From: a virus
DNA: 47,593 nucleotides
Virus record (IMG/VR): IMGVR_UViG_3300037502_000623
Location: 1 to 47,593 of that record
Reading direction: 5' to 3' (one strand)
Part shown: one piece after another, positions 2,758 through 30,423 of the stretch
Numbering within the stretch: position 1 is the stretch's first letter
How the letters are laid out: each line of letters opens with the position of its first letter
The notes under the pieces: model-generated
Seen by the model: the letters and a program-made list of their open reading frames with translations, nothing else
Told to the model about the DNA's origin: nothing
The model's database searches: none
Made by a program: the position numbers and the translations under genes

Positions 2758-2784
2758 GCCCCCGGCATGCCGGGGGCTTTTTTT
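2758..2784 (+). terminator. rho-independent terminator of the replication operon
   Basis: A perfect 20-base GC palindrome (2758-2777, arms GCCCCCGGCA / TGCCGGGGGC) is followed by seven T residues on the plus strand. The T-run directly touches the stop codon of the convergent giant late gene (complement of TTA at 2783-2785). For minus-strand transcription there is no T-run after the stem, so the signal is one-directional. Confidence 0.9.
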
Positions 2785-8700: not shown

Positions 8701-10624
8701 ACACCTGCTTGACCACGGCGGCATCAGCCGGGTTGGAGATGTCTTTGCCTGCAAGGGGACTGTCCGGGCGCAGGATCAGCGCGGTGGGGCCAATACCAAG
8801 CGCCTTACCAAACGCTTTAGGGTCATCAATCTTGGTGACCGTTGCGAGATCAACCGCAGGTGTAGCGGGGGCGGTAGGTTTGGTGGGCTCGACGGGTTTG
8901 CCGGGGGTAAACGGCCCCGAGAATAGATCCCCTTGCCCAGTCTTCTCCGTCTCAGCCCGAAGTTCCCTGTACTGCTTGTCAAGCGCGTCCAGTTCTGCAA
9001 TATCCATCCCGGGCAGAGTCATCTGCGCACTGGTGGGGATGGGCGCACGCTTAGCCGCCTGCTGCTTCTGGAACTCAGGCAGTCCAGCAAAAGCCTCTAC
9101 GAGCGCCGCCTTGCGTTCCGCCCGCGCCTGTTTAATAGCTTCCTCGTACTGCGCTTTCTTCTCTTTCGTCAGGGTGCCAGCAGCCTGCTCGGCATCCAGT
9201 TGCGCTTGCAGGGCGGCTTCCGCCTCACGCGTCGCGTCAATTTTCTGCTTCTCATAATCAGGCAGGCCAGCGAAAGTTTCCTTCAACCCCGCCAGACGTT
9301 CTGCTCGCGCCTGTCTAATAGCCGCATCGTACTGGGCTTTCTTCTCTTTCGTCAGAGTGCCAGCGGCTTGTTCCGCAGCCATCTGCTCTTGCAAGGCGGC
9401 TTCCGCGTCCTTGGCGTACTGCGCCTGCTGCTTATTAAACTCAGGCAACCCGGCGAACGCTTCGGTAAGTTCTTTCTCACGCTGAGCGCGAACCTGCGCA
9501 AGAGCAGCGTCGTACTGCGCTTTCTTCTCTTTCGTCAGAGTGCCAGCAGCCTGCTCGGCGTCCATCTGAGCCTGCAATGCAGCTTCAGCTTCCTGAGTAT
9601 CGCGCTGTTCTTTCTTGTACGCACCACGGGCCTGCAACCCTTGGCCCACACCACCCACGGCACCAAACGCACCGCCACCGATTGCGCCTTTGACAAACGC
9701 CTCAGAAAACCGGTCAAAGTTCTCTTTGGAGAAAAAGTCTTTTGTGCTGCCAGCGATTTGTTCAGCAGTTGCGCCGATGGTTTCCTGCGCAGCCTCGGTA
9801 AGTCCCTCTACGCCAGCGGCCTTTGCCGCTTCATTGCGGATGTACTTCCAAACCTTGGGTGCAGCGCCAGTTTCCTTGGCGATCTGCTCTACAACTTTCA
9901 ACTTACCAAACGCGCCGAGGTTACTAAGCAACTTGGCGGGCAGAACTGAATCCAGCACGGAAGCGATACCACCAGCCAACGCCGAAATACCCGGCCCCAT
10001 CTCGCCGGTCTCTTTATATATACCCTGAAAGATCTCAGGGGCAGTCTGAGACAGAGACCCGAGGTACACACCACCGTACATGGCGCGACGACCAGCGGCC
10101 TCACCAACTTGTTTAGCAGCGGCAATCGCAGCAGGAGCCGCAGGGCCAGCGGCCATCGCACCACGAAGCGCAGCCTGACCAGCAAGCCGGGTGCCTGCCG
10201 CACCTAAACCCACGCCGGGGATCAGAGACGTGAGAACGCTCGGGCCAAGTTCACCGATGGTTTCCGCGCCGTACTGAAGTGCTTCGTACGGACCGCCGAT
10301 TTCTCTGAACGATTCAAACTGCTGGGGGTACTTGGCTTGCAGGGCCTCACGCGACTGCTTGGCTTCCTGCATTTGCTTGGCAGCGTATTCGTCTGCGCCA
10401 ATCGCACTGCCGATCATCGCGGGGATCACATCCCCCAGAGCGATACCTGTTTCCCCCAACCCCCGCATAAAACCGCGTTTCAGCAGGGTACCAATCCCTA
10501 CGTCGGGTTTAGGCAGGGTGAAATCATATTTTTGCGCGAGCGCCTTGATCTGCTGCTGAATCTCGGCATCGGAAAGTTCGTCACGGAATTTAACTGGCCC
10601 GAGTTTCGGCAGGTTGATGATCAT
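2783..10624 (-). CDS. giant polyvalent internal virion / ejection protein with L,D-transpeptidase-like and HExxH motifs
   Basis: A 2613-residue protein and the last gene of the late operon. Regions in order: an N-terminal Gly/Ala-rich part with possible membrane segments (about 60-330); three tandem 60-residue coiled-coil repeats (about 340-520); a long Pro/Thr/Ala/Gln low-complexity linker (about 560-900); helical sequence; a hydrophobic segment (IIKAVVTAMVAAGFIF) near 1240; an L,D-transpeptidase (YkuD)-like domain about 1300-1440 with His1392 (MHSVW) and Cys1422 in SFGCINV; an HEGTH zinc-protease-like motif at 1573-1577; then more than 1000 mostly helical residues as in phage large polyvalent proteins. 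Size, position after the tail genes and peptidoglycan-active motifs suggest a protein packed in the virion and ejected with DNA, comparable in role to T7 gp16. The motifs are seen; the role is inferred. The usual Arg after GC-I in YkuD enzymes is Asn here. Confidence 0.75.
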   Translation of the reverse strand: MIINLPKLGPVKFRDELSDAEIQQQIKALAQKYDFTLPKPDVGIGTLLKRGFMRGLGETGIALGDVIPAMIGSAIGADEYAAKQMQEAKQSREALQAKYPQQFESFREIGGPYEALQYGAETIGELGPSVLTSLIPGVGLGAAGTRLAGQAALRGAMAAGPAAPAAIAAAKQVGEAAGRRAMYGGVYLGSLSQTAPEIFQGIYKETGEMGPGISALAGGIASVLDSVLPAKLLSNLGAFGKLKVVEQIAKETGAAPKVWKYIRNEAAKAAGVEGLTEAAQETIGATAEQIAGSTKDFFSKENFDRFSEAFVKGAIGGGAFGAVGGVGQGLQARGAYKKEQRDTQEAEAALQAQMDAEQAAGTLTKEKKAQYDAALAQVRAQREKELTEAFAGLPEFNKQQAQYAKDAEAALQEQMAAEQAAGTLTKEKKAQYDAAIRQARAERLAGLKETFAGLPDYEKQKIDATREAEAALQAQLDAEQAAGTLTKEKKAQYEEAIKQARAERKAALVEAFAGLPEFQKQQAAKRAPIPTSAQMTLPGMDIAELDALDKQYRELRAETEKTGQGDLFSGPFTPGKPVEPTKPTAPATPAVDLATVTKIDDPKAFGKALGIGPTALILRPDSPLAGKDISNPADAAVVKQVLEAYASGKPATGAAAKIEEFLNRPEFEGVSDVDGSVTQPTGTSTDVAGQPTDVAPTGTTESTERGGVGSAVQPAGEPQGTTEAQPGAVEGATRTADQVFYEAKEAGDKAMALLSKNGRLPPSGSKKRAEYDALMDRFSQLKEEWAALTAKKPSPPLPTTQAAPSETSVQTAEPSAVTEGAPTQTAEGQAAPSTAETVTQPPTTATTDVTQTPEAQQGEAQGQEAPATPPPASDAQVLEEQVALTTAAEAWADFADPLRQPMWSMLSPVQQVAWTDAVESGQPTIDAAIQIAPLDRTVDAADLWADFSDPKDQPLWTQLTPEQQQAWITVINGRGPSGYATTEISPPKPPPADIAGNQRSLSALRTDMDVVQERLGKSRKKLNEVERAAHAYFSKVIPELAIQAVAHDLALAPTAYRNALMVLPSASVKGAPSKGLLSQLGPEPFFGNQAEAAFFMGQGGKNAANAALWIRSNLSAETVARFESLIDYYTRQMQRKDDYLRWHNERQQQRLEDESDVIDGKDLIREVRDTKFLQERTQSALTPEEVQTLENEYGAPSGSSRFLSKLRADVVKYVQDGANAVASSIRSIIKAVVTAMVAAGFIFNPNFVSNSEAVVVHTPTVSQAVSTVQVPPEVAARMSDAGQLAYKTLFSAIKNDLQQADKFLIIADKPTARMFVFNPDGSLLMERKTLFGAAVGDYLKGSNVLPENRITPAGLFNLGLRAGGKTASDYDFKKVFVLDKAIDGEYSVTIMHSVWLKESDAKQRMAALKTGAADDARFSFGCINVDRDSYEYLIKNHESQMDGAKLFVVPDNQAEVKDFLTGKVNKDGLTREQVPLSAGLKNTLGLNASLEQAMLHKAAHPVIIETLKAGNFEVALGLLADSTRSGFYTQVARKLMPLMKGVKVTVGGDQSSYDPATNTITLRDGATDYEILHEGTHAALSHVLDNASHPVTQQLKTIFNAVRGSVDGAYGATNLQEFAAEIWSNDDLRSRLQAYVPNGQKMSLWDRFMNAMRRWLGFPTKTESAVDRVDRLLNEIISVPPMSRTGDTLFAQSMTNPHLARDILRGMGDTMSKLPAMNETRATQFLGKLEGLTSLARQQAYRLLNLPQLAEVSERVLGPGAKKFAENVSLMEGYQHILLKRMQPLNNRLQEFTQDPKYAEFSALVHDTTIPDVNPMREHSSYQNQPDKYALWPEFNRRYRALGPKGMALFKDLFATYKELDKLLEESLKFNISAMVPDQKDAMSAYQKIMLKLAEIRIDHYAPLYREGIFWLNYELDGKTYRPAFTSAVERDAALRQVEAQGATNIESFSRVEEMNSRNMPDGTMLAAIVDIMKKTGAGAEAIDQLTLLVVKALPETSILKSRQRRQGTPGYIDNAAYVFSRASANSAQQLARMRYGESLMNNMKEMAEAQSKLRGMPSAYAKELYEEFVGRRKYAMNPDVHWAARYASAGAYYFNIAGNISSAVVQTLQTPMVTMPHLGGEYGFAKAGRALLNALNLYRRSGFKLSTKELTGETSERRAMLSIENLLSKGFEGVEQYRGLITALEAKGLLQTTTVHEALRSEKELGERMVNTSGKLREITNFITNGLFHHSERMNREISAVAAFDLEMDRLKSQGVPEAEREARAIEKAIRVVQYTHGASGSLSGPGISQTNIGRVLTVFKRFAFSMYYMLFDTMFRALPRKGATAEQQRMISAARRQLAGVYGMAALFAGAKGVPLYWIAELAYNAFQDEDDDDFDTVMRKLLGEFLYKGPINYVTNLSIADRVGWTDLIFREAKGDKTDASFMARALESALGAPYAMVDSIDRARDLIAEGHLGRGIEAALPVALRNVLKGFRYSTEGANTLRGDPVMGEIGGYNAAMQVLGFAPADLIRQYEENAYGKSKDKAITDQVKKNLKRYYIAMREGDTEAMNKAEDRLYAIGDKYPELGISPDMLRRSVKARDKISDEMYLHHGVTYSKKLRPVIEQAIGELQ
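9055..9600 (-). repeat. three tandem 60-residue coiled-coil repeats within the giant protein gene
   Basis: Three copies with a 180-bp period. Each encodes a segment containing EAALQ, EQAAGTLTKEKKAQY, a basic RAxR stretch and FAGLPxF/Y. The copies differ at many third positions but share long identical DNA words (the word for AGTLTKEKKAQ recurs near 9170, 9350 and 9535). Heptad-like Ala/Gln/Glu/Lys composition suggests a rod-like coiled coil. Boundaries are approximate. Confidence 0.85.
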
Positions 10625-14999: not shown

Positions 15000-15647
15000 T
15001 CACTGCACAAGGGCAGACACAAAAGTCAATGAGGCAATCACTGATGGTATGGCTGGGCGCGTCGGGCTTGTGCCAGTTGCATAACTAACGATTGACACAT
15101 CAGTACTCGTAGAGGACCACACTAGCTGAAGGTAGTCATTTGCTCTCATACTCGACACGAAATTCAAAGCGCCGATTGTATGAAACGGGTCGCCAGAACT
15201 TTTTCTGGGAGGCAGCCCAAATCGACTGTTAGACGCCGGTATATCAACCCCGTTTAGCCTAACCCATACATCAGCATCTTGCTCTGCGTTGCTGTCGCTG
15301 TTGAACTGGATGCTGAACTGTAAGTTATACACCCCCTCCTGTTCAACAACAAACCTAGATCCGCTGGAAAGTCTTACACCGTTACTCTCGGTAGTGGTGT
15401 TTAGGGTGATCGGGTACGCAGTCGTTGTGCTCGCTATTGTTTGTGTCGTGGAGTCGCTGAATGCACCAAACGGAAAGCTAAGGCGCTGACCACCAAGGGG
15501 GGAAGCAAGTTGCCCGAGGTTGTTGCTCAGTTGGTTGAAGTACAGACGCAGCACATTGGAGTACTGATCCTGATAGAGCGGCCCCCACTGCTGAGGCGCG
15601 AGCGGTAGGCTTGGAGTGGGCGGAAACCGAAGATAACTATTACTCAT
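15000..15647 (-). CDS. putative beta-rich fibre or decoration protein
   Basis: A 215-residue protein with a Pro-rich start (RFPPTPSLPLAPQQWGPLYQDQYSNVLRLYFNQL) that may attach it to the virion, followed by a Ser/Thr-rich beta region. The pattern GSRFVVEQEGVYNLQFSIQF ... DADVWVRLNGVDI ... MRANDYLQLVW resembles jelly-roll C1q/TNF-like domains found at the tips of phage fibres. Its ATG overlaps the stop of the upstream nozzle-like gene by four bases (ATGA), indicating translational coupling. Likely receptor-facing or decorating the tail. The fold is inferred from the strand pattern only. Confidence 0.55.
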   Translation of the reverse strand: MSNSYLRFPPTPSLPLAPQQWGPLYQDQYSNVLRLYFNQLSNNLGQLASPLGGQRLSFPFGAFSDSTTQTIASTTTAYPITLNTTTESNGVRLSSGSRFVVEQEGVYNLQFSIQFNSDSNAEQDADVWVRLNGVDIPASNSRFGLPPRKSSGDPFHTIGALNFVSSMRANDYLQLVWSSTSTDVSIVSYATGTSPTRPAIPSVIASLTFVSALVQ

Positions 15648-17749
15648 CGCCTACCGTCCGGGCGAATGTCAAGGCGCGGCGCACCAAGCTGCCATGCCGT
15701 ATTCACTTGGTTGGACGAGATCTTGAAGATCATCTGTCGGCCACGGATGCGCGTGTAGACCTGACCAGTGAATTGTTCGGTATCGGAGATGGTGTACGGG
15801 GCAATCAGGTACACAGGCTCATTTTCTGTCTTGGTGATACCCGAGCCGGAGTTACGCAGCGTGGACAGACCCATTGTCACTTGGGGCGCGACGCCACCGG
15901 GGGCGTTAGATGAGTTGGCGAACGTAAGATCTGGAAGCACGCGCCATACAAACTGGAAGCTATTACCATCGCCAAGGTCAAACTCAGACGATCCGATGTA
16001 AGCGTTAATTGCCGTGGCTGTACCAGTCGTGTTGTCGTTAATGCCAGTCTCGTGCGCGATTACTCGACCCAACCCAGTGCTTGAGTCATAGGTGGTCGCC
16101 ATAGGCACAGCACGAAGGCCGGAATCCAGCCACGCAGTACGAGACATGGTGCCGTAATACCACGCTTTCTCCATGTAATTAAAGATGACGTAGCGGTCGG
16201 GCTGATTTGCCGAGGAGGACGGGTAGAACCACCAAACTTCGTTGAAGCCCTCATTCGACCCAGCATATACCTGCTGATACTGCTGGACGTTAATGTCGCC
16301 GAATACAAACCGACGCAGATCGCAATCAAGCGTCTGCACTCGACCGTCATACATGTAAAACTTATCTACGCCCATCCAGAAAACAACCCCGGACGCAATA
16401 GTTGCGGCGTTCTGGCCGATGATCGAGATATTGTCTGCCAGTAGTTGAGCGCCCCAGACAGTCGGCGGGCCGTAGTATTGCAGTGAATACAGGCTGGAGT
16501 CAGTGAATACCAGAACTTCCTGACGAGCGATAAGCGACGCAACAATCGACGAGCCGTGAGAAACCCTAAGAGCGCCAGCTTGATTAGTAGCATCCGGGGT
16601 CCACGCATACAGATTGTCTTGATCGCTCCAGCGAATCAGCAGAGGGTCAATAACCGACCCGCCATAATCGTTGCAGCCAAACGCAAACACAAACCTGTTT
16701 ACGTCAGAAACGGCGATGAACGTCTGGATGGTGGGGATGTCAACCAGCAGAGAGATAGAAAACGTCCCGCTGCCAGCACCTGTGACGTTAACCAGATTAC
16801 CGGAAGCATTCAGCAGATTCGCCTGCAACCCGTTCACGTTGAACAAGTAATACGTCGTGCTAGCAAGAATTCCGGTTGGCAGTGTGCCGCCACTGGATAC
16901 GGAAAACTGAAGCGCAGTTCCTTCCGTGAGAACCTTGGTCAGCGTCACTACCGTGGGTGAAGCAGTGGTGAACGTAACCGTACCGCCCAGCGTGTTCAGT
17001 AAAACGCCTCGGGTATTAACACCGTTCGTTGCGTCCCAGTAGTAGATACCGCCAACCTTCGGGCCGTAAATCAAATCTTCGCCGTAGTTCTGCTGTGTCC
17101 ACACGCCCAGACTGGTGCTGGTAGTAACCGGAGATCCTTCGCCCCAAGCGCCAGACCCCCACGTACTAAACCCCCAGCCAGCACGAGGCAGTTCAGTAGT
17201 AGCGCTGACGCCGACCTGATACGCAGCAGATACGGCAGATCCACCGTAAGAGCCGCCAGAGATCGCGGAAGAGGTTGTGATCGTGTACGAGTTGGCGTTA
17301 ATGATCGAGACGATCTGGAATTCTGCGTTGAACGTGGTGTCGTAAGTTCCCGTCGCGCCGCTGTAGGTAACAAAATCGCCAGCCGAGCAGCCATGGGCCG
17401 TGTCAGTAACGGTGACGGTCGTTGTGTTGTTGCCAGCGAACGGGTTGGTGCCAAGCGTGACCGTGCGGCGGATCGGGGTGATGTCGTTAAACGCACCGCC
17501 CTCTTCAATGTAGAACTTGAGGTTAGTGCCCACTCCAAGCAGATTGGAGCCGTTGAGCGTCACCCAATTCCACAGCGACCGGCAAAGGCCACGGAAAGTG
17601 TTCAGGGAGTACGGCACCCAGCCACCGATGGACTCGGGGTTGCCTTGACGGAAACGAATCTTGTCGCACTCATACCAGCCGCCCTCAGTGGTATAGCGCG
17701 TGTTTTCCCGGTTCACCCCGGGTTTGAACAAGATCTTCTGGAGCGGCAT
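15644..17749 (-). CDS. tail nozzle / DNA-stabilisation-like protein
   Basis: A 701-residue protein. The N-terminus (LFKPGVNRENTRYTTEGGWYECDKIRFRQG) and the middle (IRWSDQDNLYAWTP, LFWMGVDKFYMYDG-like blades, NEVWWFYPS, YVIFNYMEKAWYYG) match phage packaged-DNA stabilisation proteins of the P22 gp10 kind and beta-propeller nozzle proteins such as T7 gp12. It is longer than P22 gp10 (about 470 residues) because of a Thr/Ser/Gly-rich insertion at about 95-330. The protein would form the distal part of a short tail and keep DNA in place before ejection. It directly follows the lysis genes and precedes the fibre-like gene with an ATGA overlap. The tail role is fairly sure, the subfamily less so. 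Confidence 0.7.
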   Translation of the reverse strand: MPLQKILFKPGVNRENTRYTTEGGWYECDKIRFRQGNPESIGGWVPYSLNTFRGLCRSLWNWVTLNGSNLLGVGTNLKFYIEEGGAFNDITPIRRTVTLGTNPFAGNNTTTVTVTDTAHGCSAGDFVTYSGATGTYDTTFNAEFQIVSIINANSYTITTSSAISGGSYGGSAVSAAYQVGVSATTELPRAGWGFSTWGSGAWGEGSPVTTSTSLGVWTQQNYGEDLIYGPKVGGIYYWDATNGVNTRGVLLNTLGGTVTFTTASPTVVTLTKVLTEGTALQFSVSSGGTLPTGILASTTYYLFNVNGLQANLLNASGNLVNVTGAGSGTFSISLLVDIPTIQTFIAVSDVNRFVFAFGCNDYGGSVIDPLLIRWSDQDNLYAWTPDATNQAGALRVSHGSSIVASLIARQEVLVFTDSSLYSLQYYGPPTVWGAQLLADNISIIGQNAATIASGVVFWMGVDKFYMYDGRVQTLDCDLRRFVFGDINVQQYQQVYAGSNEGFNEVWWFYPSSSANQPDRYVIFNYMEKAWYYGTMSRTAWLDSGLRAVPMATTYDSSTGLGRVIAHETGINDNTTGTATAINAYIGSSEFDLGDGNSFQFVWRVLPDLTFANSSNAPGGVAPQVTMGLSTLRNSGSGITKTENEPVYLIAPYTISDTEQFTGQVYTRIRGRQMIFKISSNQVNTAWQLGAPRLDIRPDGRR

Positions 17750-18636: not shown

Positions 18637-18978
18637 TTACTGGGGCGGAGTCGGCCACACTACGGTCTGCGGGAACCCCGGTTGCTCAGGCACATCCCGA
18701 AGTTCTTGGCGGTACTGCGCCCATGCCTGCTGCTGCTGAGTCGTCATGGACGCCCAGCGGTCTGCGAGTGCGTGATTGTCAGAGGCAATCAACAGAGCGT
18801 CACGTTGTGTCCGAACTTCAGCCGCAAGCACAGAAGAAGGGACAGGATTAGGGGTGTTGCCCGCAGCCAACCACGCCTGATAATCCTGCCAACCGGTGTT
18901 GTTCGGATCGTCAGGGATGAAAGCGTTATCAGAAAGCCGGATAACGCCAGATGATTGAGTCAGTTGATACACGATCAT
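18637..18978 (-). CDS. tail fibre assembly chaperone-like protein
   Basis: A 113-residue protein from ATG at 18978. This start forms an ATGA overlap with the stop of the fibre gene, preferable to an in-frame ATG seven codons earlier inside that gene. The C-terminal half (RDALLIASDNHALADRWASMTTQQQQAWAQYRQELRDVPEQPGFPQTVVWPTPP) is typical of phage tail assembly chaperone proteins: RDxLL, D, AWxxYRQxLRDxPxQ, FPxxVxWP. The N-terminus (SDNAFIPDDPNNTGWQDYQAWLAAGN) matches their usual leader. Its place directly after the fibre gene supports a role in folding or attaching the fibre. Confidence 0.8.
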   Translation of the reverse strand: MIVYQLTQSSGVIRLSDNAFIPDDPNNTGWQDYQAWLAAGNTPNPVPSSVLAAEVRTQRDALLIASDNHALADRWASMTTQQQQAWAQYRQELRDVPEQPGFPQTVVWPTPPQ

Positions 18979-20693
18979 AGCTCCGAAGAAACAACCCAAT
19001 GAGCCAGCACATAACCATTATTGGATACGGCACTAGTTTGATAAAAGTTCATGCCGCGAGTGCTAATGTCACTTCCGGTTACAGCAATGTCTGCGGCTGC
19101 GGCGACATCTCTAACAACACCAGTCGCACCTGTTGCAGGAGAATAGACAGTAGCAGTGGGGGCCGCTCGCATTTCTACGGGGAATGCCACGTTGTATGCC
19201 ACGGAATTATTCACACCGATTTCGCGGTATTGCCCTGCGGCTGTAATTGTGGCGGGGTTGACCGTCAGACTATAACTCTTTGAGTAATAACGCTGGCAAA
19301 GTGCAACCTCTTGCCCAAACTGCCGATGTTCAAACGGAGTTGCAACTGCCCCAAGCTCAAGTTGCGCACCAGTAATAGCAAAAGTGTTTGACGTAGAGTC
19401 GAGGCAGTTAACTTGGTTTGAAGTGGCAAGAAATACGCCGGTTTGCCAAGCTCCTGCCGTAGTCTGAAAAGTTGTACCACAAGCTAGCGCCCAAGCCACC
19501 CTCAATCCTATTCCGTTTATCCAACTCCAATTGCCAGCAGTTATCAAACCCCCCGAAACGGTTAAGGTTTTATACTCCCACGTATTAGAAGCATTAACTG
19601 TGTACTCAAGAACATAAGCTCGGTCGTTAATGTTTGAAAAAGATACGCAATGGGTTCCCGTTTTTGTACTGCGAACCCAAAACGACAAGGTAAACGTGCG
19701 ACCAATCAAGTCGCGGATGTTGTACCCTTCCACCAATTGCCTAATAATTGTGTAATCTCCCGCAGCAATTGAGGTGTCTGCGGCGGTCACCGAAATACGC
19801 AAACTATTATAAAACTCGTTATTTGACGGTACATCGGTGTCTTGAAGTACGGTTACCGTAGCCGAAGTGGAGTAACTAATCTGCCACCTGTCTAAAGTGT
19901 AAGCATTAGAGGCGGGGGAGGCAAACGTAGTATCACGTTGGGTGATATTCATCCTACCGTTAATGAGTTTGTTAATACCAAGACCAGCTACGGTATTGCT
20001 GCCCCACGTAGTTCCGTTTGCAAGCAGCAGATTGCCGGAGGTACTCGGAGACACAACCTGAAGTGCGGAAGTGCCGTTACCGAGCAGTACGTTATTTGCT
20101 GTCAGGGTGGCCGCACCTGTGCCTCCAGACGAGACAGGCAGGGTGCCCGTGGTCAGGGCAGAAGTAGAAGTGGCGTATACCGCTCCGTTGGCGGTGAACG
20201 AAGTCAGGCCGGTTCCGCCGTTCGTTGTGGCGAGCGTGCCAGTCAGGTCTGTAATCCGGTTAGAAGCAACCAGAGCGTAGTCGGTACCGTTCCACGCAAC
20301 CAAGGCCCGGGTCAGTGAGGGGATGGTGACGCCCGTGGTTGGGCCTGACCCCCGTACCACCACCGATTGATTGGTAGATGTGGCGTTGATGACTACGTAT
20401 GCCCGACTGTCTGCGGGAGCAGTGATCGTTAGAGTACCCGCCGGATTCCCGGTGCATCGAATGATCCGGTATTGAGCAGATCCCGAAGATGTCCCGGCAA
20501 CTTGAACAAGCGCCGTGCCGTTTGCAACGGTAAGATCAACAGAAGTCTGGCTTCCGCTGATAACCTGCGACCCCGCCACTGCGGCATCGACATAAGTCGT
20601 CAGGTAATCATTGACGACATCTCCCCAAGTGCCCGCTAGTTCACCGGTCTGAGGTTTAGCGAGGCCAATCAGGGATGTATATGTAGTGGGCAT
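18975..20693 (-). CDS. tail fibre protein
   Basis: A 572-residue fibre. The N-terminal segment (SLIGLAKPQTGELAGTWGDVVNDYLTTYVDAAV, residues 7-39) is a common virion-attachment region of phage fibres. Gly-Gly-Thr-Gly repeats follow (NGGTGLTSFTANGAVYATS, SGGTGAATLTANNVLLGNG; about 155-210), typical of trimeric fibre shafts. The C-terminal part begins with INKLINGRMNITQRDTTF (about 240) and holds a beta-sandwich region of carbohydrate-binding type. It includes the conserved PFEHRQFGQEVALCQRYY block near residue 460. It probably recognises host surface glycans. The assembly-chaperone-like gene follows directly with a 4-base overlap. Confidence 0.85.
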   Translation of the reverse strand: MPTTYTSLIGLAKPQTGELAGTWGDVVNDYLTTYVDAAVAGSQVISGSQTSVDLTVANGTALVQVAGTSSGSAQYRIIRCTGNPAGTLTITAPADSRAYVVINATSTNQSVVVRGSGPTTGVTIPSLTRALVAWNGTDYALVASNRITDLTGTLATTNGGTGLTSFTANGAVYATSTSALTTGTLPVSSGGTGAATLTANNVLLGNGTSALQVVSPSTSGNLLLANGTTWGSNTVAGLGINKLINGRMNITQRDTTFASPASNAYTLDRWQISYSTSATVTVLQDTDVPSNNEFYNSLRISVTAADTSIAAGDYTIIRQLVEGYNIRDLIGRTFTLSFWVRSTKTGTHCVSFSNINDRAYVLEYTVNASNTWEYKTLTVSGGLITAGNWSWINGIGLRVAWALACGTTFQTTAGAWQTGVFLATSNQVNCLDSTSNTFAITGAQLELGAVATPFEHRQFGQEVALCQRYYSKSYSLTVNPATITAAGQYREIGVNNSVAYNVAFPVEMRAAPTATVYSPATGATGVVRDVAAAADIAVTGSDISTRGMNFYQTSAVSNNGYVLAHWVVSSEL

Positions 20694-20702
20694 GAACTGC
20701 TC

Positions 20703-23579
20703 CTAAACAATCTCTTCAGAGTCTTGAGCGCTATCAACATCTTCCCAGTCGGGGGTCTGGTTGGTAGCCACTCCTTGCCAATTAACTGCTTGCGCGGTTT
20801 CGATGGTAGGCCAATTTCCGGCCTGCTCGTTGGTAACGGATTGCCAGTTCGCGGACTGGGAGTCATTGACCTCTGCCCATCCAGCAGATTGCGCTGTCTC
20901 GGCACTCTGCCAGCTTACAGCTTGTGCAGCATCAACCGCAACCCAGTTGGCGGACTGAGACGTAGCAGCATTCTGCCACCCCGCGCTCTGATTGTCACTA
21001 ATAGTTTCCCAAGCAACAGATTGGCTGGTGTCCGGGGCCTGCCAGTTTGCTTCTTGAGTGTCGTCGATATTATTCCAGAGCCGGGTAATAAACGAACTGA
21101 CCGCATCGGCAGTGCTGCACGCCTCAGCAATAACCTGAATCAATCGAGCGTCGCCCACCAACAGATCACTTGCGACTGCTGCTTCTTCTATGGATCTGTC
21201 GTAACTGCGCCCGCCAAGAATGAAGTCGGTTACCGAAGCGTCTTCGTGAATGTCGCAGTCGTACCGCTGAACCCCAACGGTGGAGTCCAGAATGGAGACG
21301 CCTTCCTCCACGGACACAGCAAAGATCGCCTGTGCGCTAACCAACTCAGCGGCGTTAAGCTGATCGTCGAACGTGCGCGGGTAGGCCGGAATGGCGGCCA
21401 TCTCATCAGCAACAAACGCAGCCTCTTCAATGGACCGACTGAAAACAACGCCATTCCAAGGACCTTGACCCCAAGTGCCCGAACCCCAGCCGCCTTCCGT
21501 ATAGATCACCGCCAGTGAAATAACATCGGTCGCCGTAGCAGGCTCAAGGATGATCTGATTCTGAATTGGGGTCTCAACGTCTACAACATCAGTCGCAGTC
21601 GCGGAGTCAGGGGCAACGCTGAAAGACAGCGGCAGGCCAGTGAAGATCGTGTCGGTAGCCGCAGCGGGCTCCTCGATAATCCCGTTAACCAGAACGAGCT
21701 TAGGGGTAACTTCGTCTGTGGCGACAGCCGTTTCAGCCGCATCCCGGGAGAAGATAATCCCGTTCCACGGCCCTTGGCCCCACGCGCCAGAACCCCAACC
21801 GCCTTCTGTGTAAGTAATGGTCGCGGAAGGCTCATCAGCGCCAAACACCTCCTCAAGAATTATCTGGTTCTGAACCGGCGTCTCAACCGTTATGGCATCT
21901 GCGGCAGTGGCAGAGTCTTGTGCAACGTTGAAGGACAGGGGCAGGCCAGCGGTAACTTCATCTGTCGCCGAGGCAGGTTCAAGCAAAATGCCGTTGACTA
22001 GCGCGAGTCTTGGGGTGATCTCATCAGCAGCAGAGGCGGTATCTGCGGTACTCCGGGAGAAGATAATTCCGTTCCACGGACCCTGACCCCAAGCCCCAGT
22101 ACCCCAGCCACCCTCGGTAAGCGTGATGGTCGAGGAAGTAAGGTCAGTGGCAGTAGAAGTTTCCGCGACCTCGGTTTCGCTATCGTTCGCTTTAAGGACA
22201 GAAACAACGTCCGCTGCCGAAGCGGACTCTTCAACGACGCCATTAACAGTTGTTAATCTCGGGGTGACTTCATCCGCAGCCGAAGCGGACTCCGAAACAA
22301 GCCCGTTGACCAACGGCAGTAGTGCGTCAATCTGATCCGAGATTGCCCCGGATTCGACAACACTCCTGTTGAAGATGATCCCGTTCCAAGCCCCCTGACC
22401 CCATGTGCCAGACCCCCAGCCGCCTTCAGTAAACGTGACGGAAGAATCAATCGAGTCGGCAGTGGATGCTGTTTCCGCTACAGAATGATTGAAGGTGCCG
22501 ATAGCTTCAGTTGAATCAGCGCCCGAGGCAGAGTCTTCTGACCGACCGTTAACGGTCGTCAGTTTGGGCGTGACCTCATCTGCCACAGAGGCAGACTCGA
22601 TTACCGCGCCATTAACCGTCGAGATGGTCGCCGAAAGCAGGTCAGAGACGTTGGCTGACTCAATGACGGAGCGGGCAAAAATAATCCCGTTCCATGGCCC
22701 TTGGCCCCACGTACCAGACCCCCAGCCGCCTTCTGTGTACGTTACGGACAGAGACACGGAATCCGCCGTGGATGCGGCTTCTTCGACGGAAACGCGGGGC
22801 TGAAACGCTGTGGAAGCAACGTCCGATGTCGTCGCAGCCTCAAGTATGAGGCCATTAACAGTCGTTAATCTCGGAGTGACAAGATCTGCACCACTAGCAG
22901 CCTCATCGACTTGCCCATTTACGGCGGGCACAGACAGCGTTACTGAATCCGCAGCAGATGCGGACTCGACAATGTTCCGGTTAAATACAACCCCGCTCCA
23001 AGCGCCCTGACCCCATGTCCCGGTGCCCCAACCGCCCTCAGTCAAGGTGACGGAAGCAGACGCTTCGTCGGCCAGATTGGATGTCTCCGCGAGCGCAGAG
23101 TAAACGCTGGCGATGTTTGATGGGGTGTCTGTTGCGGACGCCGTATCTTGCGTCGTGCTTATGGGAACAAAACGCGCTGAAGCGGCGTCTATTACGGAAG
23201 ATAGCTCGCTGTCTGTCCGCTCGACTTGTAGTCGAACACTCGTCTCATCCGAGCCCGTTGCGGTCTCGGCGGCTACAGGAACAAAAGTTGCCTGAGCACT
23301 TACAGAATCAGTACCTGAGGCAGTCTCTTCCTCAGTGCGGAAGTAGTTTGTGACGCCAAAATTGGCATCAGAGACAGAAGATGTCTCGGCAACACTAACA
23401 AAAACATCACGTATCGAAGATACGGAATCAGAGCCCGTGGCGGGCTCTAAAACTAGACCAGCAGCAGAAGTCCCGGATACTTCATCCGAGCCAGTGGCAG
23501 ACTCAGTTACTGATGACGAGTAAGCTGAGTAACCCCATTTAGGTTGGCCCCAAGTGCCGGAACCCCAGCCACTGGACAC
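20703..23579 (-). CDS. hierarchical Trp/Gly repeat protein, putative adhesin or fibre
   Basis: A 958-residue protein made almost wholly of repeats. The N-terminus has GWGSGTWGQ. Six further copies of TEGGWGSGTWGQGPWNGIIF-like units follow, spaced about 101-104 residues apart. Between them lie acidic Ala/Ser/Thr-rich units with E-x-A-x-x-A-D-x-V and VNG signatures. After a short region near 760-830, the last 124 residues are eleven consecutive 11-residue units, each starting with Trp and carrying Gln at position 8. Very acidic, with almost no Cys. GWG-type repeats occur in phage virion proteins. Its position between fibre and other virion genes suggests a long surface appendage; function unknown. 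Confidence 0.7.
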   Translation of the reverse strand: MSSGWGSGTWGQPKWGYSAYSSSVTESATGSDEVSGTSAAGLVLEPATGSDSVSSIRDVFVSVAETSSVSDANFGVTNYFRTEEETASGTDSVSAQATFVPVAAETATGSDETSVRLQVERTDSELSSVIDAASARFVPISTTQDTASATDTPSNIASVYSALAETSNLADEASASVTLTEGGWGTGTWGQGAWSGVVFNRNIVESASAADSVTLSVPAVNGQVDEAASGADLVTPRLTTVNGLILEAATTSDVASTAFQPRVSVEEAASTADSVSLSVTYTEGGWGSGTWGQGPWNGIIFARSVIESANVSDLLSATISTVNGAVIESASVADEVTPKLTTVNGRSEDSASGADSTEAIGTFNHSVAETASTADSIDSSVTFTEGGWGSGTWGQGAWNGIIFNRSVVESGAISDQIDALLPLVNGLVSESASAADEVTPRLTTVNGVVEESASAADVVSVLKANDSETEVAETSTATDLTSSTITLTEGGWGTGAWGQGPWNGIIFSRSTADTASAADEITPRLALVNGILLEPASATDEVTAGLPLSFNVAQDSATAADAITVETPVQNQIILEEVFGADEPSATITYTEGGWGSGAWGQGPWNGIIFSRDAAETAVATDEVTPKLVLVNGIIEEPAAATDTIFTGLPLSFSVAPDSATATDVVDVETPIQNQIILEPATATDVISLAVIYTEGGWGSGTWGQGPWNGVVFSRSIEEAAFVADEMAAIPAYPRTFDDQLNAAELVSAQAIFAVSVEEGVSILDSTVGVQRYDCDIHEDASVTDFILGGRSYDRSIEEAAVASDLLVGDARLIQVIAEACSTADAVSSFITRLWNNIDDTQEANWQAPDTSQSVAWETISDNQSAGWQNAATSQSANWVAVDAAQAVSWQSAETAQSAGWAEVNDSQSANWQSVTNEQAGNWPTIETAQAVNWQGVATNQTPDWEDVDSAQDSEEIV
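20706..21077 (-). repeat. eleven-unit W-x6-Q 11-residue repeat (33-bp period)
   Basis: The end of the repeat-protein gene encodes eleven successive 11-residue units with Trp at position 1 and Gln at position 8 without a break in register (residues 835 to about 955). Units such as WQSAETAQSAG and WAEVNDSQSAN show that only the Trp and Gln, and mostly small or acidic residues, are kept. DNA identity between units is moderate, so the repeat is under protein-level constraint rather than freshly duplicated. Confidence 0.9.
21451..23041 (-). repeat. six copies of a GGWGxGxWGQGxW module, ~310-bp period
   Basis: Nearly identical 50-bp blocks lie at about 21451, 21761, 22070, 22381, 22689 and 22992, with a seventh partial copy at the N-terminal end of the gene (about 23537-23574). 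Each encodes TEGGWG(S/T)G(T/A)WGQG(P/A)W(N/S)G. The regular spacing shows that the gene grew by duplication of a roughly 103-residue unit. Confidence 0.85.
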
Positions 23580-23589
23580 TTATCCATCC

Positions 23590-24171
23590 TTAGGCTGACA
23601 GACTGAATTGATAGGTGACGTTCAAAATGTCGCCGTTTACAACCGACCGGTCGCCGGGAGACTGAAAGTCAGCAGCGGAAAACAGCGTCCCCGTAGTGCC
23701 GCCCTTGGTGTTGTTGCTAATCAAAAACGCCCCACCGACGGTCGTGGTCGCGTTCATGGTGAACACAGCCTTATTAGATGTGTTAGTCACAACTGATGGG
23801 TTCGCATTCGTAGCAGCAGCAAAGTTCGCGACGGGGCGGGTGGATTCGCTGTAGCTCGTGTTTTCAGTCCACCCACCGTGCGAAGCAGCCGTGTCACCGG
23901 CAGCGGGTGTGTTTGAAGCAGCAGCGCCATAAATACCGACATACCACGTAGTGATCTGAGTCGTAGCCACCAGAGCGGAACCGGCCATGTACTGAAGGCC
24001 GACGTTCACAACAAGATTGGGCGTCTCGGCAGTCCACTTGGGGTTGCCGTCTTTGTCAAAACATTCAACGATGTATTTGCCGGTAGCCTTAAGCGACTCA
24101 GTATTCGGCGTGCTGTTGGCGATCAGACCACCGCCGATCACATCCGAGGTCTTTGCTTTGTTCATCGTCAC
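23590..24171 (-). CDS. virion structural protein
   Basis: A 193-residue Ser/Thr/Ala/Asn-rich beta protein. It may start at GTG 24171, about six bases after an AGGAG site, or at ATG two codons later (24165). Segments such as VECFDKDGNPKWTAETPNLVVNVGLQYMAG and TWYVGIYGAAASNTP...GDTAASHGGWTENTSYSESTRPVANF are familiar from phage minor head or tail proteins in similar clusters. No catalytic motif or membrane segment. Likely a minor virion component; the exact place is unknown. Confidence 0.65.
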   Translation of the reverse strand: MTMNKAKTSDVIGGGLIANSTPNTESLKATGKYIVECFDKDGNPKWTAETPNLVVNVGLQYMAGSALVATTQITTWYVGIYGAAASNTPAAGDTAASHGGWTENTSYSESTRPVANFAAATNANPSVVTNTSNKAVFTMNATTTVGGAFLISNNTKGGTTGTLFSAADFQSPGDRSVVNGDILNVTYQFSLSA

Positions 24172-24180
24172 TTCAGACTC

Positions 24181-24612
24181 CTATGCAATCCTGATGATTG
24201 CGCTGGTGCTAGAGGCAGTGGGGAACTGAACCTCAAACGAGGTTGAGCAAGTTTTATCCCCACCAAAATCAAGAACACATACGGTGGGATTGCCCCCACC
24301 AGACTTATAAATCAACGCGCCGCGACAGGTAAACGCAGCCGGGTTCCACGTAGAGTTTGAAAACGACAGATACGCAGTCGTATTCGTGGGGTCAGCACCC
24401 GTCGTCGGTGTCACAGATACCGTCAGCGTGTTACCACCGGCAGTATATCCGGTCCCAGTAATCTCGCCGTCAGTAGTGTACGCCGAAGTAGTCGGTCCGA
24501 GACTAGCCGTGTCGCTATACAACGCAATCTTGAACGTGTCAGATGCGAAGTTAAACGTGCCCGATGCCAGACCCGTTTTGAAAGTGTTGGTTGCACCTTG
24601 AACGAGTGGCAT
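24181..24612 (-). CDS. virion structural protein, paralogue of the protein at 34453-34884
   Basis: A 143-residue beta-rich protein. The N-terminal FKTGLASGTFNFASDTFKIALYSDTA is followed by an Ala/Thr region, GTGYTAGGNTLTVSVTP, and a C-terminal strand pair (RGALIYKSG ... VCVLDFGGDKTCSTSFEVQFPTA). The order and wording parallel the 143-residue protein encoded at 34453-34884 (FASNTFKVYLSNATP, GYDTAGGETTTVAV, YVVLYND, ESFTVKFN), so both probably share one fold. Such proteins are frequent among minor structural proteins of aquatic phages. It follows the 231-residue connector gene after one base. Confidence 0.65.
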   Translation of the reverse strand: MPLVQGATNTFKTGLASGTFNFASDTFKIALYSDTASLGPTTSAYTTDGEITGTGYTAGGNTLTVSVTPTTGADPTNTTAYLSFSNSTWNPAAFTCRGALIYKSGGGNPTVCVLDFGGDKTCSTSFEVQFPTASSTSAIIRIA

Positions 24613-24613
24613 A

Positions 24614-25309
24614 TCAAGTCACCGGCTGGCGATACTGCCCAGATCTGTAAGCGTCCTGCCGTTCCATACCGTCGCCAAGGCGTTTGGCAAGCCCAAGGGC
24701 TTCTTTGTACTTGGTGTCGTACAGCGTCAGCATGTCGGCATCACCTTTCATGAAGGTATACGCCTCGACCAACGAACCGTACAGCAGCACGCTGTCAAAG
24801 TTGTCCCCGAGCCAAGTGGTCGATGCAGTCACAATCGACTCAGGGTAGTAGTAATAATGAAGCTCAACCGTGTACCCAGCATCAGGCGTAGGCCCGAGAA
24901 TGAACGACAACTCATTCGTAATCGTCGCCCCAGAAACCGTAGGTCCAAACAACGCGTAATATCGTGGCAGACCAGAATCAGTCGGCGAGGGGTATGACTG
25001 ACGGATGAAGTTCACATCCTTGTTTAGCAAGTACTCATACGCACCAGCGCCATCCACAACAGCCAGAGAATACGCCGCGAGGAAGTCGGTAGGGCACGAG
25101 AGATACTTATTGCCGATTGACGTTTGTCCGGTTGCGTTTTTACGCAGGGATGGGAACTGAACGGTGTTGTAGATACGCTGCTCTGCCTGTCGGACAAAGC
25201 GAGCGATCTGGTCAGCAGGCGTAACAGCAGAGCCGTCAGCGAGGTACGTCGTAGGGAACGTATTCTCGGTGTACGACTGAATCGCTGCTGACAACTCGCT
25301 GTAGTTCAC
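24614..25309 (-). CDS. head-tail connector / adaptor-like protein
   Basis: A 231-residue protein starting with GTG that overlaps the previous stop (GTGA). N-terminal MNYSELSAAIQSYTENTFP, DQIARFVRQAEQRIYNTVQFPSLRK and FLAAYSLAVV are typical of phage adaptor or tail-tube-A-like proteins, where long helices pack against the portal. The C-terminal helical part (LLYGSLVEAYTFMKGDADMLTLYDTKYKEALGLAKRLGDGMERQDAYRSG) is also characteristic. It probably joins portal and tail together with the 308-residue protein two genes upstream. Fairly sure it is a virion protein; the exact connector role is inferred. Confidence 0.65.
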   Translation of the reverse strand: MNYSELSAAIQSYTENTFPTTYLADGSAVTPADQIARFVRQAEQRIYNTVQFPSLRKNATGQTSIGNKYLSCPTDFLAAYSLAVVDGAGAYEYLLNKDVNFIRQSYPSPTDSGLPRYYALFGPTVSGATITNELSFILGPTPDAGYTVELHYYYYPESIVTASTTWLGDNFDSVLLYGSLVEAYTFMKGDADMLTLYDTKYKEALGLAKRLGDGMERQDAYRSGQYRQPVT

Positions 25310-25732: not shown

Positions 25733-26110
25733 CTACGTAGTCACGATAGTGACTGTACCAATTTGAATATCCAATGCCAAGTTATTTGGCGTTAGCCCAG
25801 CATCATTAGCCCTTGAGCCACCAACGGGATTCCAGCCCCATTGAATAACTCGGCTGCCTTCTCTGTTGTTACCAGACTGGTAGTAGCTGGTATCGGGGCG
25901 CGGATCACGAACTGCCTGTGGATCGTAAACCGGATACATGCCCAACTGCAACTGCGGTTGATCTGGTTCCCAGCACTCAGGACAAACCTTGATGTTGACG
26001 GTCTTGGTCTTGATCGTGAGTTTGCGAAGTTCCTTGAGCTTATACCGCTGCCCGCACCGATCACACTCGGCAATCGAGTTCTTCGCTGATGCGTACTTAG
26101 GACCTGCCAT
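25733..26110 (-). CDS. zinc-ribbon protein
   Basis: A 125-residue protein with a four-cysteine zinc ribbon: Cys16 and Cys19 (CDRCG) and Cys43 and Cys46 (CPECW), separated by a basic KELRKLTIKTKTVNIKV stretch. The C-terminal half (DPRPDTSYYQSGNNREGSRVIQWGWNPVGG) is aromatic and Gly-rich. The zinc ribbon is seen directly; what it binds is unknown. The ATG overlaps the stop of the 308-residue adaptor gene by one base. Context suggests a connector-associated structural role rather than regulation. Confidence 0.7.
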   Translation of the reverse strand: MAGPKYASAKNSIAECDRCGQRYKLKELRKLTIKTKTVNIKVCPECWEPDQPQLQLGMYPVYDPQAVRDPRPDTSYYQSGNNREGSRVIQWGWNPVGGSRANDAGLTPNNLALDIQIGTVTIVTT

Positions 26111-27036
26111 CAGTAAAACAGAGAGCGCGGAACGAACCTGAGGCTCGCCTTATCTCTGTCCTCATCAGCCGCCAACTGCCACTGCTGCTCGTACTCAGAT
26201 TTGAGCATGGCAATACGGTTGGGGTCCATCTCGGGGAACTTCAGCGCCATCTTGTACGCCAGTCCAGCCACCATGCACTCGATGAACCTGAACGGAATGT
26301 CCTGAGTCTTGGTGCCGGTACCAGTGTCCTGCATCCGACGCATGCGCCAGTACACGAATGTGTAGTAGGGGCTGCCACTGGACCCTTGGTTCGGCACAGG
26401 CCAGATGTTGATGGAAGTCAAGTTCTGAATCGTTACGCTAGCCCCAGCGTTATGACCAGCCGCTGTCGTTCCGTTCTGCCCGCGAGCGCAGTACACCAGA
26501 TCGCTCCCATTCACCGCCGAGTACGAGATCGTCTCGTTGTCCAGCTTGATGAAGCCAGACGAAGGCAGTTGAGACACGCCCGTGATGGGGATCGTGGTGA
26601 TCGTGGAGTTGATGGTTGAGGTCAGCGTAGCAGTCGTGGTGTTAGAGTCACCAGTCTGGCGATTGACCCAAACCTGAATGGGTCGGCCAGTTGCGTTCTT
26701 ATTCGGGATCGTCGAGTAAGTAGACTCCGAGATCCGGTTGATGTTGATGTCGGTTTGATTTTGACCGGTGCCGGTACGAACAACCTGATCCAGCAGGTCG
26801 ATGGTGTCCGTAGGAATGGGATAAACGGCTTGGTTCGGGTACAGGGGGATCTGCCCCTGCTCAATCGTCCAGAGGTTGATGCCCCGATTGGCCCACTCGA
26901 TAGTCAGCAGGTTCAGGGAACGACGGGCAGTCCTGAAGTTGTAGCCCGTGCGAAGTTCTTGGCCGCAACGCTCAAACGCCTCTTCAATGAGGTCGTTCAC
27001 ATCTAGGTTGAACGCTGCGGTACCGGTAGTAGACAT
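26110..27036 (-). CDS. putative tail adaptor / tail tube-like protein
   Basis: A 308-residue protein. The N-terminus (FNLDVNDLIEEAFERCGQELRTGYNFRTARRSLNLLTIEWANRGINLWTIEQG) is a conserved start of podovirus-like phage connector proteins. A beta region (YPIPTDTIDLLDQVVR) follows, with an inserted Thr/Ser-rich domain (about 135-205) containing TTIPITGVSQLPSSGFIKLDNETISYSAV. The C-terminal helices include YKMALKFPEMDPNRIAMLKSEYEQQWQLAADEDRDKASLRFVPR. Similar proteins serve as the ring between portal and tail. It lies near the second connector candidate (24614-25309). Confidence 0.7.
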   Translation of the reverse strand: MSTTGTAAFNLDVNDLIEEAFERCGQELRTGYNFRTARRSLNLLTIEWANRGINLWTIEQGQIPLYPNQAVYPIPTDTIDLLDQVVRTGTGQNQTDININRISESTYSTIPNKNATGRPIQVWVNRQTGDSNTTTATLTSTINSTITTIPITGVSQLPSSGFIKLDNETISYSAVNGSDLVYCARGQNGTTAAGHNAGASVTIQNLTSINIWPVPNQGSSGSPYYTFVYWRMRRMQDTGTGTKTQDIPFRFIECMVAGLAYKMALKFPEMDPNRIAMLKSEYEQQWQLAADEDRDKASLRFVPRSLFY

Positions 27037-29493: not shown

Positions 29494-30423
29494 TCAGGTC
29501 TGCACCTCGATCCTCGCTCGGGCTACGATCCCAGACGTACTGACTGACAGGGTATAGGTCGTAAACGAAGATGTCAGTGTTTGCCAACTTGATGTGCCAA
29601 TACTGTTGCCGCTGCTGTCTTGCAGTACAACCCGAATCTGACCAGACGAGTAAGACCGTTTGGCCCTAATCTGAATCTGAAGCGGCCCAGACGGCAGTGT
29701 GCCATTCAAACCAAACACCGCAGGGCCCGGAGACGCCGTGATATCTGGACTGATGATGTAATCGTTGTCGTCCGGCACGGCCTCGTCAATCATGTCGTAC
29801 AAAACTGTACCTGCACTTGCAGTCCAGTTGGTCGTAGTGATGTCAGAGTTCGGCCGAATAACCGAGGGACTGAGAGTCGCGGCAACGCCGGACAGGTTGT
29901 ACGAGCCCGGATCGGCTAAAACTACGCGCCCGAAATCAAGATTCGCTGCAAACCCGGTTAATGAATACGCGCCTGCATCAGCCTCAAGAAGCGTGCCTTG
30001 AAACAGAGTCGCGTCAAAACCCGTGAGCGCGTAAGACCCTGCGTCAGCAGAAAGGAACCGGTTAAGGTCGAGGGTTGTGGCAAAACCAGTAAGCGCGTAA
30101 GCGCCAGCATCTGCGAAAACAAACCGGTTGTACAGAAGCTCCGCGTTAGAACCAGTTAGCGCATAAGAGCCCGCATCAGCGGAAATCAACCGGTTGTACA
30201 GGAGTTCTGCACTAGATCCAGTAAGCGCATAAGAACCGGGATCGGCGGATAAAGTCTGTGCCGCTGTCTTAGTAAGGTCTGCGCTGAACCCAGTAAGCGA
30301 AAACGAACCGGGGCTTGCGATCAGGGTAGTGGTTGTCGGACCTACCTGCGTCTGCGACAGCTCAAGCCAATAGATCTCAACGAGATTCGGCGCTACGAAC
30401 GGCTGACGGACGCGCAAGACCAT
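29494..30423 (-). CDS. PGSYALTG-repeat protein with C-terminal beta-sandwich domain
   Basis: A 309-residue protein. It has seven units of about 20 residues, ADAGSYALTGxxAxL (about 35-195). A C-terminal domain of about 110 residues follows: TASAGTVLYDMIDEAVPDDNDYI ... GPAVFGLNG ... IQIRAKRSYSSGQIRVVLQDSSGNSIGTSSWQTLTSSFTTYTLSVS. This domain is clearly homologous to the C-terminus of the 611-residue protein encoded at 31617-33452, so it is a mobile module shared by two genes three kilobases apart. Probably a surface protein with a carbohydrate-binding-like end. The gene lies between the LamG-like protein gene and its paralogue. Confidence 0.7.
   Translation of the reverse strand: MVLRVRQPFVAPNLVEIYWLELSQTQVGPTTTTLIASPGSFSLTGFSADLTKTAAQTLSADPGSYALTGSSAELLYNRLISADAGSYALTGSNAELLYNRFVFADAGAYALTGFATTLDLNRFLSADAGSYALTGFDATLFQGTLLEADAGAYSLTGFAANLDFGRVVLADPGSYNLSGVAATLSPSVIRPNSDITTTNWTASAGTVLYDMIDEAVPDDNDYIISPDITASPGPAVFGLNGTLPSGPLQIQIRAKRSYSSGQIRVVLQDSSGNSIGTSSWQTLTSSFTTYTLSVSTSGIVARARIEVQT

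Follow-up and report, generated by a model that had tools for sequence, protein, structure and literature searches.

The window analyzed here, a 47,593-base stretch of viral DNA (positions 1 to 47,593 of IMG/VR record IMGVR_UViG_3300037502_000623), carries on its minus strand, at 20703..23579, a gene for a 958-residue repeat protein within the tail module. The open reading frame (ORF) begins with a GTG codon, and a Shine-Dalgarno-like AAGGA, read from the sequence, lies 7 bases upstream (23587..23591, minus strand). From the N-terminus, the translation comprises a Trp/Gly motif, GWGSGTWGQPKWGYS (residues 4-18; 23526..23570), a repeat body (residues 19-834; 21078..23525), and a C-terminal ladder of Trp and Gln (residues 835-958; 20706..21077), all on the same strand. 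The gene product is probably a tail part with a constant tip of undescribed fold and function, and it belongs to what appears to be a large, uncharacterised family, mostly from uncultured short-tailed phages.

Six GGWG motifs punctuate the body, at residues 182-196 (22992..23036), 284-298 (22686..22730), 386-400 (22380..22424), 490-504 (22068..22112), 593-607 (21759..21803), and 696-710 (21450..21494), again on the minus strand and with starts spaced 102-104 residues apart; with a diverged copy at residue 4, in the N-terminal motif, the GWGxGTWG motif is used seven times in all. The six supermodules, each 102-104 residues long, are composed of ~20-21-residue units of the ‘ExASxxD’ type, and autocorrelation peaks at 102-103, 40, and 20-21 residues. 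The original prediction, made from the DNA and its translation, of a roughly 103-residue module repeated six times around a GGWG centre thus holds, although it counted two levels of repeats and there are three, the module itself being composed of the shorter units.

The same prediction placed eleven uninterrupted 11-residue units, with Trp at position 1 and Gln at position 8, at the end of the protein, and this is what the ladder contains: eleven Trp (835, 846, and onward to 945) and eleven Gln (842 to 952), every gap being exactly 11, in units of the form W-x6-Q-x3. The best phase yields 20 hits in the ladder segment against a maximum of 9 after shuffling, with none of 20,000 shuffles coming near. 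Gln also occupies unit position 2 in units 2, 4, 6, 8, and 10 and in no odd unit, and identity at a lag of 22 residues exceeds that at a lag of 11 (permutation p about 0.04), so the ladder is not purely an 11-residue repeat and has a weak 22-residue alternation. When 53 non-redundant ladders of the family are pooled, lag 22 again exceeds lag 11 (1 in 2000 permutations); taken singly, only 28 of the 53 do so.

Across the family, the ladder unit reads W-x2-[IV]-x3-Q-x3, with Gln at position 8 in 279 of 287 units (97%), Ile or Val at position 4 in 271 of 287, Pro at position 10 in 178 of 287 (62%), and a D/N/S-rich segment at positions 5-7. The ladders are rich in Ser, Thr, Asn, Gln, and Asp, acidic, and nearly without basic residues; that of the window has 19 Asp or Glu and no Lys, Arg, or His. 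They run to the extreme end of the protein, the last aromatic residue standing 4-6 residues before the stop in 129 of 138 members, and 119 of 131 non-redundant ladders contain 4 or 6 aromatics, with an odd number in 12 and 11 in the window. By hhalign, the window-type ladder matches that of compact marine-type relatives with a probability of 97.8% (E 1.2e-12).

The relatives were collected by a protein search (50 loci, nine of them near relatives) and by an alignment-based scan combined with a DNA-pattern scan for the ladder only (at least ~190 further loci). The matches listed yielded 138 unique, complete proteins that open with a GWG-type N-terminus and close with a ladder; they are 103-960 residues long and laid out as an N-terminal motif, a varying number of 20-22-residue repeats, and the ladder as the last element. 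Among complete members found by the N-terminal motif only, 70 of 71 carry a ladder at the C-terminus, full in 68 and short in 2; in the remaining one, a single Trp of the ladder is replaced. Where the ladder alone led to the find and the 5' end is complete, the N-terminus is GWG-type in 67 of 107 cases, the others beginning differently, for instance with MFGFTAFSAAPF. These counts make the ladder the constant element, with the N-terminus and body repeat exchangeable. The loci L128, L130, L131, L138, L141, L145, and L147 encode ladder proteins with another N-terminal motif, roughly F/Y-G-x-x-x-F/Y-A/S-x-x-P-F/Y. The ladder rule (Trp at 1, Ile or Val at 4, Gln at 8, every 11 residues) recurs in at least 120 viral-contig stretches, mostly beside the same tail genes; a scan of genome contigs gave two matches only, both on contigs of metagenome-assembled genomes. 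Alignment by hhalign between the two repeat-body types was limited to the ladder, which leaves a shared origin of the bodies conjectural; both types seem to be present in some proteins (L131 and L147, for example).

Two relatives come from cultured phages. DSL-LC04, with a host given as Gammaproteobacteria, encodes WJZ48131.1 (OR003939), which resembles the window protein in occupying the slot after the adaptor and phrog_644 genes, in its N-terminal GWG motifs, and in its C-terminal ladder, here of four Trp after ~20-22-residue VTG repeats. The Pelagibacter phage HTVC027P encodes gp68 (QGZ17849.1) in the slot after phrog_644, with repeats, three GWG-type motifs, and a vestigial two-Trp end, IWNQI...GWREVVA. 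Both differ from the window protein in being shorter (376 and 321 residues, respectively), in having VTG- rather than ExASxxD-type repeats, and in lacking the 103-residue supermodules.

The window encodes a terminase, a portal, an HK97-type head protein, an SU10-type adaptor, a nozzle-type protein, a holin, an endolysin, and ejection-type proteins, a set that fits a short-tailed (podovirus-type) phage. Upstream of the repeat gene on the minus strand lie an SU10-type adaptor gene (24614..25309; Pfam SU10_adaptor E 4e-25; phrog_2941), a phrog_644 gene (24181..24612) that holds the same slot in L019 and DSL-LC04, and a gene for a phrog_8123 protein of unknown function, assigned by PHROG match (23590..24171). 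Directly downstream is a gene for a tail fibre-like protein (18975..20693, minus strand; phrog_4492 E 5.7e-65), the gaps on either side being about 10 bases. Synteny was counted by phmmer matches to seed proteins of three neighbour genes, each count covering the members whose flank reaches far enough: upstream, phrog_644 was matched in 131 of 139 and the adaptor in 127 of 135; downstream, 99 of 103 have a fibre homologue. At loci that the DNA pattern of the ladder retrieved on its own, phrog_644 was present in 84 of 104 and the fibre in 83 of 99. In the Roseobacter phages CRP-603 and CRP-902 and the uncultured genome ct7L0027, phrog_644 is followed directly by the fibre gene and the slot is empty, which marks the repeat gene as an optional member of the tail cassette. 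It is this gene order that favors a virion protein or fibre, as originally proposed.

A further link to the tail comes from the nozzle-type protein (15644-17749, minus strand), identified by a phmmer match to the nozzle of PDB entry 8zkk (E 2e-5) and by phrog_3287, a virion structural protein. At about residue 191 it contains GWGFSTWGSGAWG (17141..17179, minus strand), a motif of the same kind as the N-terminus of the repeat protein; motifs of the GWGxGxWGxGxWG kind occur in 21 of 39 nozzle-type ORFs or fragments of the collected loci and recur near residue 200. That the two proteins have a GWG-type motif in common suggests that it may be a tail-assembly element.

Other features of the window and of these neighbours were recorded in passing. 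A second match to the SU10-adaptor family lies at 26110-27036 (Pfam E 1.8e-9). Genes for phrog_644 proteins, of unknown function, also adjoin those for tail fibres or minor tail proteins in marine podovirus-like, Gordonia, and Caulobacter giant phages, and one follows the capsid gene in the satellite phage MiniFlayer. A 2613-residue protein is encoded at 2783-10624; its C-terminal quarter matches phrog_10089 (DarB-like antirestriction), its N-terminal part has a weak match to phrog_2206, the virion RNA polymerase family, and its gene contains three copies of a 183-base tandem unit (9056-9594). A 66-base tandem unit is present in 2.5 copies at 30084-30249.

The protein varies in length through its body. 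The commonest lengths in the family are 189, 211, 231, 254, 276, 297, and 321 residues, in steps of ~21-22, and two relatives, L001 and L006, are 97% and 96% identical at their two ends and differ in length by exactly 205 residues, that is, by two supermodules. The body thus readily gains and loses units while both ends stay. Mean pairwise identity among 71 non-redundant members is 0.65 in the N-terminus, 0.45 in the ladder (0.36 without Trp and Gln), and 0.29 in the body. Nonsynonymous and synonymous divergence (dN/dS) is 0.115/0.877 overall between the window gene and L008, 0.156/1.025 against L004, and 0.168/0.896 for the ladder against L001; dN well below dS indicates purifying selection on the gene.

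Structure was predicted for the compact relative L077 (232 residues) as an AlphaFold2 monomer with 56 sequences. Its body, over about residues 31-170, is modelled with a predicted local distance difference test (pLDDT) score above 90 and with strands every 22 residues, that is, as a beta-solenoid; its ladder reaches a pLDDT of 54-73 and is without secondary structure. A run on window residues 590-958 with 16 sequences gave a mean pLDDT of 31. In sequence, the body repeats best at a period of 22 residues in 117 of 138 members and at 20 in a further 17, and by the L077 model the body of the window protein is a probable beta-solenoid as well. The modelling hence supports a beta-solenoid for the body of the relative, not for the ladder. 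Of the regular solenoid originally expected of the 11-residue units, what stands is thus the body of L077, and the expected stack of aromatic side chains is not supported by the monomer model, in which the low pLDDT and the lack of secondary structure point to a ladder that may be flexible as a monomer or may fold only in a complex or oligomer.

Comparison of the L077 body with solved structures by VIA-align gave, as the best match, the filamentous haemagglutinin secretion domain 1rwr (Z 12.3, root-mean-square deviation (rmsd) 4.2 over 156 residues), followed by SufB-SufD 5awf (Z 11.3, rmsd 3.3 over 165) and the CsgA fibril 8enq (Z 10.5, rmsd 7.9 over 107). The likeness is that of a generic beta-helix fold, with no sequence match to any of the three, and the alignments leave out the ladder. 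Foldseek found no match to the L077 model in PDB at E ≤ 0.001, and the significant matches in BFVD are proteins of uncultured Caudovirales phages with no assigned function.

The expectation that the 11-residue unit has no named fold stands as far as tested: no PHROG describes the ladder, no Pfam family fits it, and no relative has been solved. Sequence searches of PDB with the window protein and with a 56-member profile gave nothing; PHROGs gave none for the window protein and a weak phrog_31224 match in 3 of 56 relatives; and the motif strings are nowhere mentioned in the literature library searched. The Pfam family CTD (Spt5, PF12815) matches 22 of 56 compact relatives at E ≤ 0.01 (best E 5.3e-8), L077 scoring 33.7 bits against a cut-off of 25.4, and does not match the window protein. 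The likeness lies in tandem TPxW-like units, but the Spt5 repeat is a nine-residue repeat of a eukaryotic transcription factor, whereas the phage unit is exactly 11 in the window and family ladders, and the match most plausibly reflects convergence on repeats of the TPxW-like kind. A Pfam Gpi16 match to the window protein (E 1.5e-7, residues 357-401) was rejected as low-complexity, no stretch being significant alone. Matches in Zymomonas plasmids were also set aside: they reflect an unrelated lysine-rich repeat, WVKEKVRQALN, in which Trp at 1 and Gln at 8 coincide by chance, and are not homology. In plasmid pZM36, this 11-residue repeat is located at 7971-8852 of L052.

A curli-like amyloid was considered in view of the curli genes carried by HTVC023P-type pelagiphages (PMC9599517) and of CsgA among the structural neighbours, and was rejected: the CsgA repeat S-x5-Q-x4-N-x5-Q does not occur in the window and occurs twice or more in no member. 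The tail of phage SU10 (Kuravirus) consists of, among other parts, the adaptor gp11, the long tail fibre gp12/gp13, and the nozzle gp17, and its long fibres attach to the adaptor, according to the part of the published account drawn on here (PMC9509320). The window resembles SU10 in its SU10-type adaptor and in its nozzle-type protein, the latter recognized by a PDB match to another podophage; it differs in the repeat gene, as that part of the account (PMC9509320) describes no protein of the repeat-rod kind.

Tentatively, and with somewhat less than an even chance of being right, we favor the reading that the protein is a tail rod of adjustable length in a short-tailed phage, with an acidic ladder that docks on a conserved phage partner or associates with itself. 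The N-terminal Trp/Gly motif, common to the nozzle-type protein, would seat the rod in the tail. The body would form a beta-solenoid rod whose length shifts as coils are gained or lost and, in this lineage, as whole ~103-residue supermodules are; the change in body length is evident from the repeats, the length series, and the 205-residue difference, and the fold of the window protein would follow that of its relative. The ladder, at the extreme C-terminus, would bind a conserved phage partner, such as the neighbouring fibre or another copy of the protein, and would probably be ordered only within that complex. A rod with two constant ends is favored since it covers the gene order, the length change, and the conservation together, and a constant partner, be it a phage protein or the protein's own copy, is likelier than a varying receptor given that the ladder is acidic and better conserved than the body. 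Several points weigh against this reading. The solenoid is transferred from L077, which has a different repeat consensus, and the C-terminal 369 residues of the window protein itself reach a pLDDT of 31; hhalign matched window-type and compact relatives in their ladders and not in their bodies; the identity ranking is biased, as many relatives were found via the N-terminal or ladder pattern; what places the protein in the virion is the order of the genes; and the ladder's conserved partner is putative.

A doubtful alternative, which takes in the glycan binding originally suggested, is that the protein is an adhesin, with the body as a stalk and the ladder as an exposed tip whose Trp side chains bind polysaccharide of the host surface or other polymers. 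The gene adjoins that of the tail fibre, Trp-rich repeats often bind sugars, and phage fibres usually run from an N-terminal anchor through a variable stalk to a C-terminal tip. However, unlike typical receptor-binding tips, the ladder is better conserved than the stalk, its strong acidity and near lack of Lys, Arg, and His speak against such a role, and neither of the binding patterns tried is present, choline-binding GW-x(n)-WY repeats being found in 0 of 138 members and the Asp-box pattern giving no match.

It is unlikely that the ladder forms a regular solenoid or stacked aromatic column in which two 11-residue units make one 22-residue coil that continues the body, with two stacks of Trp. 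Such an arrangement would suit the 22-residue body coils of most relatives, the 22-residue alternation in the pooled and window ladders, and the prevalence of 4 or 6 aromatics; yet the ladder of L077 has no strands and a low pLDDT directly next to a body above 90, the window has the odd count of 11, the alternation holds in just over half of the ladders taken singly (28 of 53), and even counts can arise from shared ancestry. We regard as equally improbable a multivalent docking tail that stays disordered throughout and acts as the C-terminal repeats of Spt5 do, a reading to which the Pfam CTD matches (with L077 above the cut-off), the low-confidence coil of the L077 ladder, and the S, T, N, Q, D-rich composition would correspond; a disordered tail would not need a spacing kept at exactly 11 residues through as many as 11 units, with Gln at position 8 in 97% of family units, and the window protein has no CTD match. 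Slightly less probable again is the more specific proposal of a new fold in which pairs of units prolong the body solenoid, with two Trp stacks, into a thin, highly acidic fibre that becomes ordered upon assembly and not before, and that is a regular component of the tail in a large group of uncultured phages.

Very little weight attaches to ion-triggered folding, whereby Asp/Asn/Ser/Gln-rich loops would bind divalent cations and the ladder would fold outside the cell in the manner of RTX proteins: the repeats are acidic, with D/N/S-rich positions 5-7, and the monomer model of the ladder is of low confidence, but the RTX nonapeptide repeat GGxGxDxUx occurs in 0 of 138 members and not in the window, and cation binding is hypothetical. 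That the repeat is simply low-complexity or accidental, or else an alpha-helical hendecad of the LEA or synuclein type, is almost certainly wrong, for although the composition is repetitive and 11-residue repeats are common in helical proteins, the shuffles and the purifying selection contradict the former, and the Pro that 62% of units have at position 10 is incompatible with the latter's continuous helix, none being predicted in the L077 ladder.

If the protein is a tail part, as the gene order suggests, then uncultured phages have a widespread component that has gone unnoticed. Its location in the virion is directly testable in the cultured relatives DSL-LC04 and, for the vestigial form, HTVC027P, and a rod of adjustable length between constant ends would lend itself naturally to testing how phages adjust the length of an appendage.

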